From Hysterium pulicare CBS 123377 (lineage: Eukaryota > Ascomycota > Dothideomycetes > Hysteriales > Hysteriaceae), in contig AJFK01000185.1 of NCBI GenBank assembly GCA_000467715.1, positions 1 through 64,000 of the forward strand: a DNA stretch of 64,000 nt, read 5' to 3'. Below the pieces are notes generated by a model. The model had not been told where the DNA came from and ran no database searches. It saw nothing but the letters and a program-made list of their open reading frames with translations. Below are positions 14,401-62,176 of the stretch, piece by piece. The first letter of the stretch is position 1, and each line of letters opens with the position of its first letter. Both the position numbers and the translations under genes were made by a program.

Positions 14401-15044
14401 TCGTATAGACTTAGGCTTGTGCACGTATCTCGAATGTTTCCATTCCAGAACCGTTGATCTGCTATCGATGAAAGGGCTTCATAGCATTCCTTGTCCTGCC
14501 ATGAATCAATAGGACCGAATATGAATCTGTGAATGAATGTCCTCGCTCGGTCCGAAAGAAGCGTGTTTCTCCATCACACAAAAGTTCAAGAATGGAGGTA
14601 CTGGTTTACAACTTACGCTTGGCCTTTCGTTAAAGATTACCTTATAGCAATGCACTAGTATTAGATTCCTTTAGTTTTCAATTGAGACATTGAAGTAGGT
14701 AGGCGAAAAATACACGTATAGGGATTTCTTATGCTCCACCAATATTGACTGAAGTTTCACTAATCACCAAAGTCTCACATGCTGATATATATTCCTAAAA
14801 TTGACATGCTTGAAAATCAGCCATAAAAACTGTCGCGATGGTGAGGGTAGGAGTGAGGGTCTTAGTCTTTGTTGAGCCTTTAAGAGTTGCGCACAGCGAT
14901 CATGCGAATTTGTTCTCTATCTGGAATGTAACTTCTGTCAAGCCAATTTACCTGCAGAATAGTATTCGGGTTGTTGAGTAAATTCTGTCCGTTGACGCCG
15001 TATCCATGCTTCCTATACACACTACTATACAGACAACTCTCTTT
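11440..15044. other. Gene-poor stretch, possible eroded coding relics
   Basis: About 3.6 kb without a convincing gene. The first part (11.5-12.8 kb) has a GC content similar to genes and broken protein-like frames in several phases, as old decayed genes leave. The second part (13.2-15.0 kb) is AT-richer and stop-dense. No terminal repeats, transposase motifs or target duplications were found. Confidence 0.5.
13112..13134. repeat. Perfect 9-bp inverted repeat with 5-nt loop
   Basis: AATTCCTCC, then TCGGT, then GGAGGAATT forms a perfect hairpin inside the gene-poor stretch. It is not followed by a T-run and is not near a gene end, so a terminator role is not supported. Confidence 0.5.
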
Positions 15045-15579
15045 CTAGTATGATCCCGGACCCCCTCCACCACGTTCTACCCGATTCAGCTTCCGAGCCG
15101 TTGCGATCTATGCTTGTGTTAGACAATTCGCCGTTCTTGCAAGTTTGAATCACATCCATTCCACCTACCTGTGTTCTTGTCCGCTGTCCTCTCACCGGCA
15201 AACCCATAGCATGTCTTCTACCTCTGTACGTCCCTAAATCCCTTAATCTCTTAATATTATCCGTGACCTCTCGCCGTAAGTCGTTCTCGATTTTCATGTT
15301 CGTAAGCTCCGCATTCAGGTCCAGTATCTGCGCGCTTCGAAGCGCGCCGACTTTTGCGGTCTTGTGGATGTGGAAGCGCGCCATTATACGCTCGCAGACT
15401 TGAGGACCGATGCCATAGAAGGTTTGAAGGGAGCGCTGCGTTGATTAGTTTCTGTGGAGAAGTGGTGCGGGTGCGAGGGCTGTACATGGACGAGACTGCG
15501 TTCGGGGATATTGACCCCAAATATAAACACCTGTAAATCGTTAATAGGATTTTTCAAAAAGAAGACCCGAGCATACCAT
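15045..15579 (-). CDS. SWS2: Mitochondrial small-subunit ribosomal protein uS13m
   Basis: There are four exons: 15579-15577 (the ATG alone), 15530-15486, 15435-15169 and 15107-15045, giving 125 residues. Splicing gives M-VFIFGVNIPERSLVH-RSLQTFYGIGPQ, then ARFHIHKTAKVGALR, ENDLRREVTDNIKRL, GTYRGRRHAMGLPVRGQRT and the end KLNRVERGGGGPGSY. This is the S13 fold with its helix-two-turn-helix and basic GTYRGxRH motif. The protein sits in the head of the mitoribosomal small subunit and contacts the P-site tRNA. Introns are 46, 50 and 61 nt; the first two have clear branch points (CTATTAAC, CTAATC). The start is fixed by the family N-terminus MVFIFGV, which needs a first exon of only 3 nt. It is divergent from the cyclophilin gene, sharing about 250 bp. 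Confidence 0.93.
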
Positions 15580-15691: not shown

Positions 15692-15701
15692 ATCACGTGA
15701 T
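15692..15701. promoter_or_regulatory. ATCACGTGAT palindrome in a divergent promoter
   Basis: A perfect 10-bp palindrome with the CACGTG core bound by bHLH factors of the Cbf1/USF type. It lies near the middle of the uS13m/cyclophilin intergenic region, 113 bp and 126 bp from the two ATGs. Its role is inferred only from sequence and position. Confidence 0.45.
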
Positions 15702-15775
15702 AGACTAGTTGAAGATCGTCAAACACCAAAGGGACACTTGTTGATTCGTTTCAGATAGCGGAGTGAGCTTCGAAT

Positions 15776-15781
15776 ATAAAG
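15776..15781 (+). promoter_or_regulatory. TATA box candidate of the cyclophilin B gene
   Basis: TATAAA lies 46 bp upstream of the cyclophilin ATG at 15827, a plausible distance for a short leader. There is no other TATA-like element in the shared promoter on this side. Confidence 0.4.
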
Positions 15782-15826
15782 ACCCTACCACCTCCATTGT
15801 ATTGTTTTCACCACAACGCAATCACA

Positions 15827-16729
15827 ATGGCTACCCTCCAGAGACTCGTTATTTCTGTTCTTTTGATCCTCACGATCACCTTTGCTTTCTTCGCTCAAGG
15901 TTCTGAAGCGGTGAAGGGACCAAAAATCACCCATAAGGTATATATCCATCCTAGAGGATGTAAGCTGCATTCGAGGCTGACAATTAGTGTGGCGGTAGGT
16001 CTACTTCGATATCGAGCATGACGATAAGCCACTGGGGAGGATCGTCATCGGACTTTATGGAAAGACTGTCCCAAAGGTATTGTATACTAATTTTACAACT
16101 GCAATGTTGAGTGCGCAGCTAATTTCATTTGCAGACCGCCGAGAATTTCCGGTAAACCTAGCTATTACGCATCTTTAAGACTACAATACTCACGTTGAAT
16201 AGTGCCTTGGCTACTGGAGAGAAGGGCTTCGGATATGAGGGGTCAACCTTCCACCGTGTCATTAAGCAATTCATGATCCAGGGGGGTGACTTCACCAATG
16301 GAGATGGTATGGAAATAAGGACATTGCGATACGATCATACTAATATGCTGTGCAGGCACTGGCGGAAAGTCCATCTACGGACAAAAATTCCCTGATGAGA
16401 ACTTCAAGCTCAAGCACACCAAGAAGGGTATCCTCAGTAAGGTCCCAATGCTCCTTCGTCGGTCCATGACTTTCAGCTAACAAGGACAATCAGGCATGGC
16501 CAACTCTGGCAAAGATACCAACGGCAGCCAGTTTTTTATCACCACTGTAGTCACATCTTGGCTCGACGGACGTCATGTCGTCTTCGGCGAGGTCCTCGAG
16601 GGTTATGACGTTGTCGAGCAAATCGAGAACTGCGAGAAGGGCATGGGAGACAAGCCCTCAAAGACGGTCAAAATCGCTAAGAGCGGAGAGCTCGAGGTTC
16701 CCGAAGAAGGTATCCATGTGGAACTCTAA
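15827..16729 (+). CDS. CYPB: Cyclophilin B, ER peptidyl-prolyl cis-trans isomerase
   Basis: There are six exons: 15827-15937, 15999-16076, 16135-16151 (17 nt), 16203-16306, 16356-16436 and 16494-16729, giving 208 residues. Residues 1-29 are a signal peptide ([20 protein letters not shown]...). The cyclophilin domain follows: [41 protein letters not shown] (catalytic Arg87), [17 protein letters not shown] and [19 protein letters not shown]. The protein ends in HVEL, a KDEL-type ER retrieval signal. It speeds proline isomerisation during folding of secretory proteins. All introns are short and phase-consistent. The last coding segment contains an optional intron giving a membrane-anchored form; see the feature at 16785. 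The gene symbol is descriptive, not taken from a database. Confidence 0.95.
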
Positions 16730-16784
16730 ACCAGCTTCGCTGATATAAAACTGCTCTAAAACGCTGATACTTCTTCTTCTGAAG

Positions 16785-17032
16785 ACACTTACGGAGCAGC
16801 AGAAGCTGCCATCGAAGGAGACAATCTAGACATCACTTCGTCGAAGGAGCCGTCGCCAGCAAAAGTTGCAGAAGCAGGGGCCAAGGAAGCAGTAACGTTG
16901 CCTGCCATTTCCTCGGAGGGCTTGTCGCTGTCCAAAAAAATGTTCTTCTTGGGGGCGATCATTACTGTGGTTCTTCTCTTCCTCCGCACGCGTAGACGAC
17001 AACCTGAGTTGAAGGAAAAAAGCATGGCGTAA
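16785..17032 (+). CDS. Alternative last exon of cyclophilin B: Ala-rich linker plus transmembrane anchor
   Basis: If GT at 16710 is used as a donor (GTATCC) and AG at 16783-16784 as acceptor, a 75-nt intron is removed. This takes out the HVEL tail and its stop. The frame then stays open to TAA at 17030-17032, adding 82 residues to a 284-residue form. The tail is an acidic/Ala-rich linker (DTYGAAEAAIEGDNLDI...), then MFFLGAIITVVLLFL followed by RTRRRQPELKEK, which looks like a single membrane span with a basic cytosolic end. The candidate intron has GCTGATAC and a TTCTTCTTCT tract before the acceptor. Three more AGs within 18 nt keep the same frame. The stretch is protein-like and too long an open frame for an ordinary 3' UTR, but transcript support is unseen. 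Confidence 0.6.
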
Positions 17033-17754
17033 ATATGTTGTACAGGAATTGAAGCAGTTTTTAAGTGACACCCGAAGCTGCGGCACCGTAGATCTGCAAC
17101 TCATGCCCAGATACCCATGCGGCCCTTGATAGCAGGAGTCACGAACGTGCAACCCCAGATGATAAAAGTCTCGCACATATCCGCCGTCAGAACATGGCTG
17201 GAAAAGTGAAGGTAGCCCCCCAAGAATGCAGAAGGACCTCACCGATGCACGCTGCAAGTGAATGAAAACTCGTCTTCGCCTAGAACTCTGACCGCCCATC
17301 GAAAGCGCAACCATGCCGTTTCCGGCCTAGCGCACTGACTTTTGCCCCCATCCGCGCAAAAATCCGTTATCCTGAACCTTCCTCTCCCTTCCACATAAAA
17401 TCTCTCCCCCCCCGTTTGCACAATCATCTCTTCATCCAACACTTTCTTGTGAAGTCACTCTCTTCTTTTTTGGCTTCACTTTCTTTTTCATCTGTCGTTT
17501 AGGGAAATCCAGAGGCCTCTGCGTCCTCAGTTTTCCTATCACGAACAGTTTCAGGCGCGTTTCTGCCTGCCATTCACGACTCTTGTGCTCACTTAGATCG
17601 GCTCATATCATTCTTTGGCTCGCCTGCGTGTTAGCTGAAGGTATATACGTCGGATAATTTGTTGCCTTAAATTCACTTCCTTGCTCGATCTCACCCGAAC
17701 GAATCTCGACAAAAAAATCAGATCAGCCAGATCCCAACACAACTATCATTCAAT
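17033..17754. other. Cyclophilin 3' region and DED1 promoter/leader
   Basis: The 3' half is strongly pyrimidine-rich (about 17400-17560), as in leaders and promoters of highly expressed fungal genes. GTATAT at 17641 and an AG near 17730 could bound a leader intron, but this is not certain. No gene was seen. Confidence 0.45.
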
Positions 17755-19892
<2,138 letters not shown>

Positions 19893-23704: not shown

Positions 23705-26602
23705 TTAACGCCGATGCATGCTTACACCCATCTGTCTCTTTTGCCTGAAAACACTCGTAACGAACTGCGGAATATGATACCATTTTTTCTTGCCTTTCAT
23801 CATAGTCGCCATCTGGGTGTAACGGAGTACTGGAAAGTCAATTTCATTGACCCAGGGGTTCGCTCCGTGATCGAGGAAGAGCTGCATTATATCTAACCAT
23901 AGCTGATTATCATTCGTTGGTTGACGTGGAGCATTCTCCAACACAGCTTCCCAGTACGTATTCGGATTAGCTCCGTGCTCAAGAAGCAGTCGGACCATCT
24001 CAATACTTGGTCGCCTACGTCTACAGACCGGTCTATCATAAAGGGTTTCGAAGCCTTTATAGTTCAAGACCGCAATCTTCAGTAACTTGGTCGTGAGTTG
24101 AGGCTCATCTCGATTGGATAACTTGGACTCCACATACATGGAGAGTTGGCATTGTACGGCCAGGGCTAAAAACGATTTCGTGTGAGGAAGAGTCCATATG
24201 TCTGACTCCGCAATGATTGCGCCGGAATCTACATCCGCAGGATCTGCCACTTGTGATTTCGAGAACAATATGGAGGCCACATGATCGAGTTCATCTAAGA
24301 TCCGGGTCTGCGGCTCCTTCGTGGTACGTTCTGCTTGATCGGCATGTTCTATGCACCATGTAGCAAGCTCCCACAACTCTTGACGGAAGCGATCTTTCGA
24401 AGGAAACGGCGATAGACACTTAAGCTGCAAAAGAAACGACCGACATAGGGATAGATATGGATTGAACGATGCGTCGGTAGCAGCCATAATGTGACTCCAG
24501 ACATCGTCACTCTCTAGAAAATCTCTGACTGTCCGGTGAAGATACTCAACTTTCGCGTAGGCAAGTCGAGAGTTCTCATCTAAATCCACTATCTCTGCAT
24601 TTAACGTCTCTGAACTATTGCTCCTATGTGCTATTTTAGTTACGAGGTGCTCGCAAGGGACAAAAAGACATACCTTTTAATAATCTTCGACACCTCGAGG
24701 AGGCCTTTACAACGACTATTGACCCGACGCTTCATCGTTTGGCCTCTATACAATAATTCTGCATCTGATAAGGGCTTAATTTCTTGTTTGAAAGCAAATT
24801 CAGGATTCTCCTCATCAGCGAACGAGAGACATAATAATGTGGGTGGATGACCGCTCGCTCGGGCAATTTGAAACAGCTGTGAAGCATGTTCTATGTAGCG
24901 AGGATCGAGGTTATTCAGAATCTTCCGAAAGAGGTCCTCCAATTTCGCGGGAAGGGAATCCAAAGTCCTTTGAAGGTCTGATAGCCTGTCCCCGTTTGTA
25001 AGACCGAGAAGCAGCGACTGGACAACAAGAGAGACCCAAAGGAACACACCCGAGGACTTTGTGACAATCTGCTTAATAAGATCTGTGGCATAGTCTGGCT
25101 CTCTCTTACGAAGTTCCTTGAATCCCGGATTCTCGTAAAGATGATTGGTGACATAAAGCTGCATCCCGTTGCTCGTGAGATATTCCAGCTTCAAATTGGG
25201 AACATTGTCGAAGGCGTCCTCGAATACGACCCACGGCCGACTAGACACGCAAAACTTGACGTCTGAAGACGAAGAGACGCATTCTTTGACAAGGGTTATA
25301 AGATCTCCCAGTTCACCGTCAAATTCGTCCATGCCGTCGACCAGAAAGCAAAGTCTTTTATCGGGACATGCCTCTTTCATCAGCAGTTTGAAGGCTCTAC
25401 GAAGTTCTACCCATGTCCAGGAGCGGTCTGCACCAGTATTGAATAGACTGAACACCTCCCATCTCTCAGGAAGTATCCGGGGAATTAAATCTTCGCAGTG
25501 AATCAAGGCCTGAGAAAGGAGTGAGCGGAGCAGGCCTTCTTTGGACTTTTGCAATCTGGTGCCGGCAGCCCAAAAGAAGAAAGCAGAAATGATGAGCGGT
25601 TTAGGATTAGACCAAGTCCCAAGCCTCTCGCGTGTACGTGAATCCTGATAAAGGTACTTCATTAACGTCGACTTGCCTGACCCGGCTTTGCCAGCTATCC
25701 AATAGAGCGACGAGTTCCCGACAAGCCAACCGGAGAAATTTGACCAAGATCCACCTTCGACTTCAGAGCCATCGAATATGAACTCGAAAGTGTTTTTGTG
25801 TGCTTCCGCTATGCCTTCTTGGCGATCTACCATATTCGAGTATCGAAGCGTTCTGAGAGTGATATCAACAAATTGCGCCCCTTTACCTTTGTCAACTTCG
25901 CTCAAAAGCTTGGATGACAAACCTGCAAGGCTTCCATCATCTTGAGCTTGATTTTGCCCTTGATATATAGCATCGACTAGATCTCGCTCCCACCTTGGGA
26001 AGTCAGATTTACTGTTCACAAGAAACTTTTGGCCGAGATTGCGGATTTCCCTTATGTCACTTTCTGTACGAACGGCAGATGAATGTTGCTGACGGCCAAG
26101 GGAGACTACCTGCTCACTGTTATGTGTCATTGAATGGAACTTCGTTGAAGAGGGTGACTCCATACCGAATCGACACTAGAATTGCCAGAACAAGACGTTC
26201 CCGAAGTTTTTGAATATTCGCATATGTCTCCAAAATAGTGTTTTCATTCCATATAGTTGAGAGAGCCTCAAGAAATGCCTTCCATGTATGGCGTTTGTGA
26301 GCGGTCTTTAGGTCCTGTATGGCCTCAATGAGAGCCTCTGCAAGGGAGTTGCACTCTCCACATATTTGCTGGAGCTCCTTTTCGGAAGGCGTGAGTTCGT
26401 GTTCTGTTTCATCGATATGTAGTGACTGCTCTAAAGTGTCCGTTAAAGTAGATAAATGATTCGCGATGCTTTTTCGCTCATGATTTAGAAGGTCCCCATC
26501 GTCTGAGCGATAGATCTTGTAGCCTCGCTGGATCAGCTTGCTGCTGAAGTCGACGAACTGAACAACACCTGCTGCGACTCCTAGTGCGGATACTGGGTCC
26601 AT
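23705..26602 (-). CDS. NACHT-domain STAND (NLR-like) protein with ankyrin-like C-terminus
   Basis: There are three exons: 26602-26166, 26116-24674 and 24623-23705, giving 932 residues. The introns are 49 and 50 nt, with phases matching at R146 and at KIIKRSNSS. Residues 1-140 form the helical N-terminal domain common in fungal STAND proteins (MDPVSALGVAAGVVQFVDF), with some resemblance to HeLo-like death-inducing domains. A NACHT NTPase follows: Walker A GKAGSGKST (288-296) and Walker B CFLVDGMDEFDG (402 on). Then comes a helical segment around SDLQRTLDSLPAKLEDLFRK (DUF7791-like). The C-terminus has two weak ankyrin-like units (RLLLEHGANPNTYWEAVLEN; LFLDHGANPW). Proteins of this class act in heterokaryon incompatibility and programmed cell death after nucleotide-driven oligomerisation. 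The ligand-sensing repeat region is short here. Confidence 0.88.
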
Positions 26603-55517: not shown

Positions 55518-58500
55518 ATGGCAGAGCAAAGATTAAGAATTGACGACTCATCAGTAGCTACCAATCAAGCAGCCTCGTCTTTTCTAGCAATGCCGAGGCA
55601 AACGCCCAACCCCCAGAGTGGCATTGGCTCTCATAGTCCACGACAATATACCCCATCTTCGGCTACCGATGATCCTCGTTCTCCTACTCCTTCTTCGGCC
55701 ACTGGCGACTCTCGATCCCCCACTCCATCTTCAGCTACCAATGATACTCGATTTCATACTCCCCGTTCAACTCCAAATATTTTCAACCCCCTTCCCTCAT
55801 TCAACCCAGACGTCCCTTTACCATCTGTTGAGAGAGAAAGCCCTCTTACGCCATCTACTTCTACTCTGGAAACAGGTTCTCAATCCGAACCCCGGAGGAG
55901 TTCAACTCCGGTTTTTCGGTTTGGCACTGATAGTATAAGTGCTCCCTTCGAGGGTTTAAGGCTATCATCTCGGTCGCCTTCTGAACACGCCGCAAATCAT
56001 GCATCCGCTCCAATCACCCGTGCAAGTTCATCAAGCTCCTCAGTTACGCCGTCTGTAAGAGTCACACCCGATCCTGCTTCAAATGAAAATTCGGAAACGA
56101 TAAACCAAAGTGGTACATCAACTCCGCGACAAGGGGGTCGAACATCGACTATACGAGGTCTTGCCGATGGTGTCCAGGCTATGAACATAGGAGTTAGAGA
56201 TATTTCACTCGTTACGTCTGCCTCGACAGCGCGTATTCATCCGGAAGCGTCAATACCAGATACGTCAAATTCTGGTGGAAGAAGCCGACCAGGATCTGCA
56301 TCTAGACGGCGGTCAGGCTCACAGGTTCACCAACCCCCTCACGTGGTTTCGAACGAAGAGCCTCCCGAAGCAATCTTTCATGCTCGAGGAGTGCAAGCTG
56401 CCCTTGCAGCTGCCAGGAGCCTTGCAGTTGATTTGGAAGACTCTCTTTCAGGTTCAGATCTGCACAATGAGCCCGAGTCTACTATTCGAAGGCTATATCA
56501 GCAGGCGACAGACTTGAGTAGCTTCCGGCCCCCTTCTATCCGTACTGTGGGTCTTGTAGGTGACTCGGGAGTCGGTACGTATTACACCTTTGCATAATAG
56601 CATCCTTCAAAACCTCACATGCGCTAGGCAAAAGCAGTCTTATCAACTCATTGTTGGACACGAAAAATCTTGCACGAGCAGTAAGTGAATAAGTGAATCA
56701 AACAAGTACCCATGCTGATTTGAGAACGATACGTAGAGCAATACTGACGGAGTCGCATGTACATGCGTCGCAACGGAATACCACTTTCATGAAAGGGATG
56801 ACTTTATTATTGAAGTGGAGTTTTTCACTGCAGACGAGCTTGAGCATCAATTTGCGGAACTCCTAGAATCATATCGCCAATTTCACCTTCGTCTCTACGG
56901 GAGTGACATCACACGGGACGATCTACAAGAGCTTGAGAAGCGTGCGAGGCTTGCACACCACACATTTCAGGCAGCATTTCGCCAGTACGTAAGGTCGGGT
57001 ATAAAGTCTATGTCCCCGTGTTTATACTTGTTCTTTACATATTCACTACCCATATCCCACTAAAGTGGTATCTGAAGATCAGAACACTATAAGCAGAAGT
57101 CTTAAGCGGGTTTCGGCAGTACCAACACACTTTTTGAAGTTCATGCTAATTGTACCCCCGTCTTTAGTCATCTCGCTCAAAACGCAAATTTTCTTCTTGG
57201 CAGGCCTCATGCAGCTGTGCTGGAGTCCATGTTGGCCACAGCTGATCTATCAATTCGACGATTCACAGGCGGCGAAGGCACACGTTCAAAAGAAACCCAG
57301 ACCACAGCGGAGGAATGCTCTACCCGATTGGCGGATCTTACCTCCGAGAGGCACAATGCTCCTGAAGCATCAGTGTGGCCCTTTATTTCTAAAATCAGGT
57401 TAGTCTACTGTGCATTCCTCCTATCTAGCTAACAATATCAGGGTGCAATTGAATGCGCATATCTTGAGTAAAGGCCTCGTCATAGTCGACCTTCCAGGTA
57501 TTTGAACCATATCGCTTCACCGCTCGCAACCCCTAGTTGTATTTTTTGTGCTAAGCAAAATAGGTCTCCGAGACATGAATGCTGCTCGCCAGAACGTTAC
57601 CGAACGCTATGTACGGAAATGTAATGAAATTCTCGCGGTCTGCCGTATCGACCGTGCAGTTTCCGATCTAGGGGTGCCGGATGTATTTAAACTCGCTAGA
57701 AAAGCTAACTTATCGAACGTTGGGATAATATGTACTAGGTCTGATGTATGTGTTAGCTCCTCAGACTTAGCTCTAAGAACTTTGCAAAAGGTTGGATTAG
57801 GTTTATGGAATCATACTGACAGCATGCTTAGGATATCAAGCCCGATGAAGCGGCGAGAGATTGGCGTCCAGAAGGGAGAATGATCCGAATAAGACTTGCC
57901 GAAATCGCAAGGAATCGCGAAGAGATCACCAAGATACGAAACTCGATTGAAGGACTCGAATCCGGGAGTGACGTAGTAGGAGAGTTAGAGGACGAAGAAG
58001 TACAGGAGCTCATTAATCTCAATAGGAAGCTCAGGACAGAGACGTAAGTCCCAGGTAATTGGAAAAACCTGAGCTGTTTTCTCACTGCATATACAGGAAA
58101 TCCGTGAAACATCGTGAATTCCAGTTGAACGAATATCTTATTGGTATTCGTAACCGTAAAGTCCAAAACGATCTCCGCACAGCCTATCAAGACCGAATAC
58201 CCGGACAGGACCTGAGAGTATTTTGCGTTAGTAACACGATTTATTGGGAACATCGACAGGAACCTAACGATACTTACTTGCCTTTCCTACGCTTGAGTGG
58301 GGTTCTGGATCTTCGAAGGCATTGCATTTCTCTCGTTGCAAAAAGCCATCTTCGCGCTACCAAGGAGTATATCAAGGACTCTATTCCGGCATTGCTCGGT
58401 TCCGTTGAGCTCTGGATACAGTCTGGTGCAGGAAATGTGAGCGCTGAAAGGAGAAAAGCACTTCGGAACACTGCTGGCGCGATTCAAGATGAACTACGTA

Positions 58501-59792
58501 AAGTAAGTACTATTGTGGTGAAACGTAAAGTCTACTTTAACCAAAACTCCAAAGTTAACAAGACCGGTATCCGAAATCAACAAACTCGCAAGGTCAACTG
58601 AAGAGCGATTCAACGAACAGGTAGCTCAACATCTAAGTCAGTATGATTTATAAGCCGAGTTCAATCCTTCTAACAATCGCCAGGACAACATGCCTATGAA
58701 TGGAGCCAAGCCGCAGAACAGGCTAGTTTAAAATGGGAAGGAGTAAGTCTATGAATCCCTTAGGTGAGACCTTAGACCTATGATGAGCTGACCAAAAACT
58801 TACAGTGGTATCACTGTAACTATATCCCCAAGCTCCACACTTTACATTTTCTAATTCTACTCTAGCAACTTACGCGGCTTTCTGCCGCAACTATGGGGAT
58901 CATGTAACTCGGGCAGCCGGACGGCACAACTGGAATGACGAGGCCATGGCTGTAATGACCGACTTTATGCGCGCGCAATGGGAGTCCTTGGATGAGGAAG
59001 TCAAGGAATTGCTAGACGACGCACTTATCTTCGTGCAAGAGACCTTCGACAATGCTTGCGAGCGTGCAACTACTACTTGTACGCGGCTTGACCTCTCAAT
59101 ATGTTCTTTTATGTGGCACTAATCGAGACCAGTGGACTCGTCGCAAAATTCGAACAATGCACTGGAAACTTTGACCGCGACACTGGGGCATCAGGAAAAC
59201 CTCCTTTATTCCGAGATAGAACAGCTTTTCGAGAGCTTCCAGAGTGACCTTTCGTAAGTGGCAGAACATCCAAGATCATACCCAAAAGCCTAACAACGAC
59301 TAGTCAACAACTCAGAACTGACGCATTCACCGGCATCCCGAGTTCAATAATGGGTCAGCTTATGGAAGCATCATATCGAGCCTGTAACCTAGACAGTGGT
59401 AAGCAACACTTCGATGACTATCTCAGTTCTAGGCACTGATTATACACACAGGCGACGGAGTCGACAGACGCCGAAAAGCCATCATCCGAAATCGGTTCGG
59501 TGACGTTACGCTATTCCAAACCCACGGACGGAAGCTCAAAGAAAAAGTCATAGCTAGGGCACGCGAGCTTCAAGAAGCCGTCCGAGAAAAGGTTGACAGC
59601 CATCTCGCAGTCGTCGAGAGCGACTTGGATACCCTGAGGAATGAGAACGTGGCGCTTGAGAGCGAGAGGTACCCTGACTTCCGTGAGCGATTAGCTACGG
59701 AGGTGGAGAGGATTAGGCGAGAGTTGGGCGATGCGAGGAGAAGAGTTGATGAAGTCTTGAATCATAGTCAGGGTGACGCTCCGATGGCATGA
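55518..59792 (+). CDS. SLIP-GC-like dynamin-related GTPase, 15 exons
   Basis: Exons: 55518-56574, 56628-56680, 56737-56984, 57120-57398, 57442-57497, 57564-57745, 57832-58043, 58097-58502, 58555-58636, 58684-58742, 58806-58815 (10 nt), 58866-59078, 59133-59253, 59304-59398 and 59452-59792, giving 1137 residues. The phases are consistent throughout. The N-terminal 330 residues are Ser/Pro-rich and disordered with TPSSAT-type repeats. The GTPase core follows: P-loop GDSGVGKS (348-355), KNLARA..SNTDGVACTCV (G2 region), VIVDLPGLRD (G3, Asp562) and ICTRSD (G4-like, 622-625). Then come coiled coils, the basic region around TYAAFCRNYGDHVTRAAGRH and a final coiled coil (ELQEAVREKVDSHLAVVESD). This layout matches fungal members of the nuclear GTPase SLIP-GC family, whose fungal role is unknown. 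The exon 3/4, 8/9 and 9/10 junctions are the least certain. Confidence 0.88.
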
Positions 59793-59934
59793 TCTTAGGA
59801 GAGCGCTGATCCGGTGTGTGATCTAATACTTGCTGACAGCGCCCGACTGAGGAGAGCGGCAGAGAAGTTTATCTCACGGAGAGCTTCGACAAAGGGAGGT
59901 TTATCAAAGACAATAGTTAGGATGATTTTGTATG

Positions 59935-60378
59935 TTATCTCCTGTGCTGCATGATTGCTGTAAATTCCGCTAGCATGATTGTTTTTCTGGCGGCCGAGCA
60001 GTTCTTTGTGATTTGAGACTCGTATTTATTGAGATATTGTTCCAAATGTTCTGTTGTAAGTAAAACTTCACCATTCTGACCGGTGCGTCGAGAATTACCA
60101 GTCGCGATCAATGTTTCGATGGATGAAGCTACGAGTGTAAGGAACCGCCAGGGCTGCAACAATACTAGAAATTCATCCGTAGTTTTATTGCTTGCTTTCA
60201 GCCGTGCTGGAAGATCGATGCCCTTCCGTAAGGCATCGTGCGCTCTCCAGAGCAAAAAGTCCCAGCCGTGACGTTCAGGGTAAGTGCCGAAATCCTCAGG
60301 TTGGAAAATAGCACTTCCGCTGCATAGATAAGGCAAAATTACAGGAACCTCGCGGTTCTTCCCTAGCAGATGCTTCAT
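59935..60378 (-). CDS. Unknown 147-residue protein
   Basis: A single-exon frame from ATG 60378: MKHLLGKNREVPVILPYLCS, then IFQPEDFGTYPERHGWDFLL, LLWRAHDALRKGIDLPARL and LLTTEHLEQYLNKYESQITK. Composition is protein-like and mostly helical, with no signal peptide or membrane span. It converges on the GTPase gene with 142 bp between the stops. The frame is open across the whole span, but the family was not recognised and upstream exons cannot be excluded. Confidence 0.5.
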   Translation of the reverse strand: MKHLLGKNREVPVILPYLCSGSAIFQPEDFGTYPERHGWDFLLWRAHDALRKGIDLPARLKASNKTTDEFLVLLQPWRFLTLVASSIETLIATGNSRRTGQNGEVLLTTEHLEQYLNKYESQITKNCSAARKTIMLAEFTAIMQHRR

Positions 60379-61055
60379 ATGTGAATCCGGACTTGAAACA
60401 AAAAATGACGCGTTGAATTTAATAGAAAGTTCGTCAGTGTAAATTGAATGGCCAGGCAGTGGCTATTTTGGGCGTTCATCTGGAGGTAGACTGGACAAGG
60501 CCAGGCCTACGCAAGCATGTTATGGAGTTCATCACAGACAGACCAGGGACTGGCAGAGTATGGGTATTGATAGGGCAGATGTTTGGTGGATGTTTCAAGA
60601 AGATCGGAGGGTGCGAGAGCGTTGCGAAAATAGGGTGGCGCAGGTTGGCCCGACAGCAGCGTCCCGGCTCCCCGCCACCACGACCACGAATCTATCAAGA
60701 AAGATGGCTGCAACCATGACGAATTGCTCCACTATAGCCCCCAACCGTCTGATAATACCATGGCAACAAGGAAGAGGCTGGCCGATAACGTTGCTGGGTA
60801 ATAAATCTGAAGAGGCGTGCTGCGGATATAAAGGTAGGACAAGGTGCCGCAAGGCCAGGTAGCATCTTTCACACACAGTTCACACTTCTCCATTCGCTTT
60901 AAGCAAGGCTCCTGTCTTTTAATATTGCACACGTATAACAGCCTCTCCGTGCAACACCTTCTACTTCAAGTCCGCCACCTACTACCTGCTTCAGCCCTAC
61001 ACCTTTAGGAACACCTTCACTACTACACATCTTCAAGCAACACAAATTCGCCATC
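60379..61055. promoter_or_regulatory. Upstream region of the small GPI-type gene
   Basis: TATAAA at 60827-60832 is followed by about 220 bp of CT/CA-rich sequence up to the ATG at 61056, the look of a strong fungal promoter with a long pyrimidine-rich leader. The part before 60780 shows no feature. Confidence 0.45.
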
Positions 61056-61292
61056 ATGCAATTCTCAATCATCGCCCTCGCTGCCGCCTTCGCCTCTACT
61101 GCAACAGCTGTCTATGTACCCGTCAACGGTACCACCACCGCCTATTACCCAACCGGTACCGGCACCGGCGTTCCAACCGCCCCATCAGCAACCTCCTCTT
61201 TAGTACCTTACACCGGCGCCGCAGCACCCACCCAGATCGCCGGCTCGGCTTTGGGCCTCGTCGTTGCAGCTGGTGTTGCATTCATTGTATGA
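61056..61292 (+). CDS. 78-residue GPI-anchor-type secreted protein
   Basis: A single small exon. Residues 1-18 form a signal peptide (MQFSIIALAAAFASTATA). The mature part is only about 40 residues: YVPVNGTTTAYYPTGTGTG and Thr/Ser/Pro-rich sequence with one N-glycosylation sequon (NGT). The end is a hydrophobic tail (GSALGLVVAAGVAFIV) preceded by small residues, the pattern of a GPI-attachment signal. Ascomycetes carry several such tiny, highly expressed wall proteins. There are no Cys residues, so it is not a hydrophobin or CFEM protein. Codon use is strongly C-ending, as in highly expressed genes, and the promoter looks strong. Confidence 0.85.
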   Translation: MQFSIIALAAAFASTATAVYVPVNGTTTAYYPTGTGTGVPTAPSATSSLVPYTGAAAPTQIAGSALGLVVAAGVAFIV

Positions 61293-62176
61293 GAGCTTTA
61301 TATGGACACGGACTTCGACTCAACTTCAATTCAATTACGGCATTCGGCATTTCATGGGCATTTTGGGACAATGGCATTGGTCGGGCGTTACTGTGACTTG
61401 AACATTGATCAGACTCGAACGGCGCCAACGAAACCACGCGGAAGGACTGCTGGGGATCGTTGTGCTGTATGGATAGATACGGATCACAGATAATGATTGA
61501 TGGGTTTGGATCAGGACGAGGGACGATTAATGGGGAGGAGGGAAGGGAACTGAACGAGGAGAAATTATCTCTAGCTATGTAGATAGATCGAACTTAATAA
61601 CAAAGGTTACCGAGAACATCGAACTATTTTCTGAAGCTTAAAATAGAGTGAACTTTTCGAGAGCGTTGGGTCAATTGGGTCTTCACTCCTCCGTAAGGAG
61701 TTTTACACTAACTTATCTAAGTCCCCTTCTCAGGCATTATTTGAAATCGTTTCCTTCATTCTAAGGTTTGATTATGCACCAAGCGCCAATAAACTTCTAT
61801 GTCAATTCCCGTCTTGTATAGAGAGGAAAAGACCTTTATTACAAAGAAGATAGAGTTATTGGACTGAGCTGTTTTCTAGCTTGTCAAGACTACAGTATAG
61901 TTACTGTATTACTTTCCGGATCAGCTTGAAGAGCGTAACTGGATTTGAAGGCGGTAACGGAGTCCAAACTGTCTATGCAGGCTGGTGCCAGTGAATAATA
62001 GAGGAGCAAGCGTAGCCGAGTCAACCCAAAAAGGAAATAGTCAGGATCCCCCCCTCTGATTGGCCAACGCGGAGCTCGACGCGAAACCACTTCAAGTACG
62101 CGACTTCCAAAACCTCACATCTATCAATCCACCCCGAATTTCTCCCAAACACTCCTCCACTGCAATTCTCCCAAAA
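61293..62176. other. Intergenic
   Basis: 3' region of the GPI-type gene and promoter of the polymerase subunit gene. It is AT-rich at 61560-61900. No gene, repeat or RNA was seen. Confidence 0.55.

Follow-up and report, generated by a model that had tools for sequence, protein, structure and literature searches.

The window analysed here, a stretch of 64,000 nt, contains on its forward strand a cyclophilin B gene followed by an open frame that could serve as an alternative C-terminal end. The features of the locus, in coordinates of the window, are as follows.

15827-16729, forward strand: cyclophilin B gene of the filamentous-fungus type, with five short introns, ending in GIHVEL-TAA in the spliced translation
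15827-16709, forward strand: coding body, an N-terminal hydrophobic signal-like segment and then a single cyclophilin domain
15827-15937, 15999-16076, 16135-16151, 16203-16306, 16356-16436 and 16494-16709, forward strand: exons, from the spliced translation
15938-15998, forward strand: intron 1, 61 nt, CTGAC with its A 18 nt before the end of the AG
16077-16134, forward strand: intron 2, 58 nt, CTAAT with its A 12 nt before the end of the AG, and a second CTAAT at 44 nt
16152-16202, forward strand: intron 3, 51 nt, CTCAC with its A 10 nt before the end of the AG
16307-16355, forward strand: intron 4, 49 nt, CTAAT with its A 12 nt before the end of the AG
16437-16493, forward strand: intron 5, 57 nt, CTAAC with its A 13 nt before the end of the AG
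16710-16784, forward strand: candidate optional intron 6, 75 nt (3n), phase 1, with the donor GTATCC, the tract CTTCTTCTTCT and the acceptor GAAG
16715-16729, forward strand: HVEL-TAA, the ER-retrieval-type tetrapeptide (16715-16726) and the stop codon (16727-16729) of the unspliced form
16785-16939, forward strand: alternative tail, linker part DTYGAAEAAIEGDNLDITSSKEPSPAKVAEAGAKEAVTLPAISSEGLSLSKK, which carries the coding signal of the tail
16940-16984, forward strand: predicted membrane anchor MFFLGAIITVVLLFL, from hydropathy and a helix model
16985-17032, forward strand: predicted cytosolic basic tail RTRRRQPELKEKSMA and stop codon, from the translation

The cyclophilin-type isomerase domain is present (PF00160, E = 3.2e-52, residues 39-194, profile positions 1-157 of 159), and the top PDB match of the long form, that is, the one with the spliced tail, is "Peptidyl-prolyl cis-trans isomerase B". 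The translation has an N-terminal hydrophobic stretch of 28 residues, whose signal-like character was judged by eye. The sequence-only reading had the gene running to HVEL and a stop codon, as is indeed seen in the spliced translation. This unspliced end matches in sequence a C-terminal retrieval signal of the HDEL type. Since one paper, in its available part, gives HVEL as the signal that retrieves mouse Ces1d to the ER (PMC8287225), the unspliced product should be a lumenal ER isomerase.

An open frame at 15025-15444, upstream of the cyclophilin gene and on the reverse strand, matches ribosomal protein S13/S18 (PF00416) and is possibly the mitochondrial form. Approximately 720 nt downstream of the cyclophilin tail starts a DEAD-box helicase gene (17755-19892, forward strand; PF00270, PF00271), which we take to be DED1-like.

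In the phase of the last exon, the frame is open from 16760 to 17032 and encodes a linker, the span MFFLGAIITVVLLFL and the end RTRRRQPELKEKSMA; the translation thus contains the linker, the 15-residue hydrophobic span and the basic tail that had been noted from the letters. The linker, of about 50 residues, is flexible and includes the peptide EAVTLPAISSEGLSLSK. The hydrophobic span is flanked by KK and RTRRR, and its mean Kyte-Doolittle hydropathy, a feature of the tail chosen post hoc, is 2.91 over 15 residues and 2.04 over 19 residues. A transmembrane helix is predicted beside the isomerase domain, in the spliced form only. AlphaFold2, applied to the tail alone without an alignment, placed helices over tail residues 24-33 and 43-74. 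The two ten-residue blocks containing the anchor have mean pLDDT values of 89 and 84; as the model of the whole tail has pLDDT 65 and pTM 0.31, only its long helix (43-74) is informative. By eye, the spliced product has no KKXX ending, and a PDB search with the tail alone gave no matches at E = 10. A separate downstream gene was ruled out, as the first ATG of the tail frame is that at the start of the anchor.

Removal of 16710-16784 joins EVPEE to DTYGAAEAAIEGDNLDITSSKEPSPAKVAEAGAKEAVTLPAISSEGLSLSKKMFFLGAIITVVLLFLRTRRRQPELKEKSMA and yields a protein of 284 aa, compared with 208 aa for the unspliced form. All elements of the 75-nt intron proposed earlier, namely GT 16710, AG 16784 and CTGAT, were found. 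The CTGAT occupies 16764-16768, with another one at 16740, and its adenine (16767) lies 17 nt before 16784, compared with 10-18 nt in the five other introns of the gene (CTNAY). The proposal that the intron removes exactly the HVEL tail and its stop needs to be amended: HVEL and the stop do go, but so do two bases of the Gly codon, the isoleucine and a second stop. The candidate intron contains two in-frame TAA codons (16727 and 16757); as both stand between HVEL and the tail frame, stop-codon readthrough was ruled out as a route to the tail.

Among the 42 in-phase GT/GC-AG joins with intron lengths of 40-199 nt, GT 16710 is the only good donor and is used by all the seven best joins; other donors were hence rejected. 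The choice of the acceptor is less simple. Four further in-frame AGs, rather than the three previously counted, lie within 21 nt of 16784 (16796, 16799, 16802 and 16805), others being at 16817, 16820 and 16829. By the score combining sites and length, AG 16829 (TAG, 120-nt intron) is slightly better than AG 16784 (-1.61 vs -2.03). The CTGAT adenine (16767) is at least 29 nt away from each of these further AGs, a distance beyond the 10-18 nt observed in this gene, and we therefore favour AG 16784 over its neighbours. It is also preferred over AG 16829, since the latter is 62 nt from the adenine and drops the first 15 residues of the linker. Thus, the AGs for the suggested tail variants do exist in frame, but their poor placement relative to the branch motif argues against treating the nearby ones as equal variants, and such variants are weakly supported. 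The donor GTATCC and the acceptor GAAG are themselves weak; introns ending in AAG make up 6 of 49 introns predicted under the relaxed setting of the gene finder and 2 of 14 under the strict one.

The gene finder was trained without the genes overlapping 15700-17100, but on introns that it had predicted itself, and hence the scores of the training introns are biased upward. Under the relaxed setting the candidate intron scores below all 49 of these introns, and so does intron 1 of the same gene; under the strict setting it scores below all 14, as do all five other introns of the gene. The two settings disagree about the end of the gene. The strict one favours the HVEL end (-4.4, vs -9.1 with AG 16784 and -6.6 with AG 16796), although in this run no gene was placed over the coding exons of the cyclophilin, so that the stretch was counted as background, which works against the tail. 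The relaxed one narrowly favours the tail with AG 16784 (33.7 vs 32.2 for the HVEL end), whereas with the four other AGs tried the scores (30.6-31.9) fall below that of the HVEL end. Of the possibilities compared, a weak, optional intron fits the splice-site and gene-finder scores best.

If, on the other hand, only the HVEL form existed, the splice sites would be unused, and the downstream frame would be either a chance opening or a decaying relic of an anchored form. The weak donor and acceptor and the preference of the strict setting agree with this explanation, and the well-placed branch motif speaks against it; considering also the coding and chance statistics given below, we regard it as unlikely.

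The full parse under the relaxed setting takes the 75-nt intron and, in addition, removes 16942-16995, a segment holding nearly all of the anchor. Were this further 54-nt in-frame intron excised in some mRNAs, the product would be a soluble form with neither signal, which would be secreted or diverted. The segment has a 3n length and the acceptor GTAG, but its donor is poor (GTTCTT), and the relaxed setting tends to over-predict introns, having misplaced, for instance, two near the start of the cyclophilin gene (15900-15954 and 15960-16016). Moreover, hydrophobic, T-rich coding sequence may be scored as noncoding by gene finders. Such an additional excision is very improbable.

The coding statistics of the tail depend on the measure. 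The codon log-odds value, 4.64, falls within the coding range, in that 27% of 631 coding windows do not exceed it, and values at least as high are found in 5.6% of 5,242 stop-free noncoding windows and in 5.6% of 2,643 stop-free off-frame windows. The preference for synonymous codons is by itself uninformative (-1.1, a value reached by 63% of noncoding windows), and by codon log-odds the antisense frame over the tail scores as well as the sense frame (4.9). In the profile of a phase-specific Markov model, trained without the cyclophilin B gene, the last exon scores +13.4, the segment 16730-16784 is negative in all three frames, and the successive in-frame blocks of the tail score +4.73, +3.54, -0.16, -2.47 and +0.21, with the sum of +5.9. 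The positive signal is thus located in the linker (the first three blocks, 16787-16933), while the block with the anchor (-2.47) shows none. Beyond the end of the tail, at 17033-17300, the scores drop to between -12 and -19. In the 3' flanks of other genes at an equal distance, none of 42 frames is stop-free and none is positive; this comparison covers 14 of the 15 other predicted genes scoring at least 12, the fifteenth being too near the end of the window. Hence, the coding statistics moderately, although not conclusively, support translation of the tail.

The absence of a coding signal from the anchor block is what one would expect if only the HVEL form were made, whereas the rise and fall of the profile at the boundaries of the tail, unlike anything in the 14 other flanks, is not. 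The coding signal in the tail, together with the slight preference of the relaxed setting for the long form, would also suit the opposite extreme, in which splicing of the sixth intron is constitutive, all cyclophilin B is anchored in the membrane, and HVEL is a by-product of intron retention. In that case, however, an HxEL motif right before a stop codon would be a coincidence, being never used, and the weak sites would suit partial rather than complete splicing. We consider constitutive splicing improbable.

To estimate how often such a tail could arise by chance, the real coding end was joined to random flanks. An open spliced frame of at least 60 residues is common: it was obtained with 36% of 3,000 simulated flanks and 44% of 8,322 real noncoding flanks, in agreement with the chance opening assumed if HVEL is the only end. 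An open frame that also encodes an anchor and a basic end is seldom obtained (with 1 of 3,000 simulated and 30 of 8,322 real noncoding flanks), which argues against that assumption. With the additional condition of CTRAY 9-20 nt before the AG, no simulated flank out of 20,000 qualifies, compared with 31 of 11,058 real noncoding pieces, which overlap one another; an anchor with a basic tail at the observed strength occurs in neither set. As the features were chosen post hoc and many genes were scanned, these rates are not true P values and understate the look-elsewhere effect. The translated alternative tail is thus partly supported, by the coding statistics, the position of the branch motif, the rarity of the anchor and the end of the signal at 17032.

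Taken together, these observations lead us to propose, with a rough probability of 0.65, that the last intron is optional and that one gene yields a lumenal form ending in HVEL and a type I anchored form. When 16710-16784 is kept, translation would stop after HVEL, and the product would stay in the ER lumen as a soluble protein, retained there by the H/KDEL receptor. When it is spliced out, the retrieval tail and both stops would be lost, and the frame would run on through the linker of about 50 residues, the 15-residue hydrophobic helix and the basic cytosolic end. The predicted helix would act as a stop-transfer segment, with the positive residues on the predicted cytosolic side; if it inserts, the outcome would be a type I membrane-tethered isomerase with an unchanged lumenal domain. 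Both mRNAs would have to be produced, and the anchored form would reside in the ER or in later membranes. The earlier suggestion of a lumenal and an ER-tethered cyclophilin from one locus is therefore strengthened by the coding signal, the branch position and the rare anchor, and weakened by the poor sites and the disagreement between the gene-finder settings.

If a universal folding enzyme could be given either an ER-retrieval tail or a membrane anchor in this way, a single gene could serve both soluble and membrane clients. It is possible, though doubtful, that the retrieval signal lies inside a regulated intron, the balance between free and tethered cyclophilin B being set by how efficiently this intron is spliced, e.g. 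during heat or folding stress.

The nearest known case of this kind of control is yeast PTC7, where, according to the available part of the source, retention of a 3n intron changes the location of the product, and two functional mRNAs are made in S. cerevisiae (PMC3597508). As there, a single fungal gene would here have a 3n intron that is kept or removed, giving two locations and one product in the membrane; the predicted intron is 75 nt long and the helix is found only in the spliced frame. As described there, however, the PTC7 intron has no in-frame stop, and its retention gives the nuclear-envelope form, whereas our candidate intron cannot be read through, would when retained encode the ER-retrieval tail and a stop, and has the helix downstream of it. 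Thus, given its two in-frame TAA codons, it would work like PTC7 but in a different arrangement.

Among cyclophilins, fungal ER forms are close to ours. The accessible portion of the Pemberton 2006 survey of sixteen fungi places the orthologues of human CypB in Group G; for N. crassa, G. zeae and two Aspergilli, the only ER CypB sizes given are 22.6-23.4 kDa, described as "PPIase only" (PMC1618848). These proteins share with ours a single cyclophilin domain, and their N-terminal signal for ER targeting may have its counterpart in the signal-like segment of our gene; in that portion no second, anchored product is described for the four Pezizomycotina, and no such form of cyclophilin B is mentioned for any of the sixteen fungi. 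The N. crassa entry was manually re-annotated, for a reason not stated there. Such short listings are in line with HVEL being the only end.

The products nearest to the predicted anchored form are two membrane cyclophilins from elsewhere, the likeness being one of design only. Drosophila NinaA is a secretory-pathway cyclophilin that is an integral membrane protein, but in the available accounts it is a tissue-specific separate gene, not a splice form of CypB. S. cerevisiae Cpr4 is an ER cyclophilin with a putative transmembrane domain, again encoded by a separate gene, whose Group H is confined to Saccharomycotina in the part of the survey seen (PMC1618848). The optional intron, if real, would provide a fungus with a NinaA-like membrane cyclophilin, with no need for gene duplication. 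The cyclophilin A genes of N. crassa, B. cinerea and T. inflatum are described, in the available text, as giving cytosolic and mitochondrial forms by alternate splicing (PMC3688495), and so also represent one fungal cyclophilin gene with two locations; they differ in that the targeting is mitochondrial vs cytosolic and the cyclophilin clade is another one. The accessible part of one paper argues that the role of human CypB may be defined by its localisation via an N-terminal membrane anchor (PMC13084196), which makes a tethered form plausible in principle.

In S. sclerotiorum, according to the part available of one paper, intron retention is the most frequent splicing event (39.8%), and at least one predicted transmembrane domain was gained by 45 new isoforms; the word "cyclophilin" is absent from the main text of this paper and of another on that fungus (PMC7749757, PMC9597501). 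The string "splic" does not occur in the portion seen of a Penicillium survey (PMC8192932).

Searches for a fungal cyclophilin B with alternative ends, or for location-changing fungal splicing, returned no such report among the matches listed from a largely open-access literature. Public protein databases may nonetheless contain long entries for fungal CypB in which a helix is predicted. The scan of GTDB gave 291 matching loci, the best 80 of which all carry bacterial titles; eight of the 80 were read downstream, and none has such a tail. Viral sequences yielded 18 matches to the pattern, none of them a relative, and Rfam at the gathering thresholds had no matches in the whole window. If real, the arrangement is a known kind of mechanism in a form that these searches did not find.

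Elsewhere in the window, two overlapping open frames on the reverse strand (23708-26175) jointly match a STAND/NACHT-type protein, with NPHP3_N in one frame and DUF7791 divided between both; either an intron or a frame change is present near 24643-24676. At 55518-61744 on the forward strand, the relaxed setting of the gene finder predicts one gene with 29 introns, probably a spurious model produced from several genes or from noncoding sequence.
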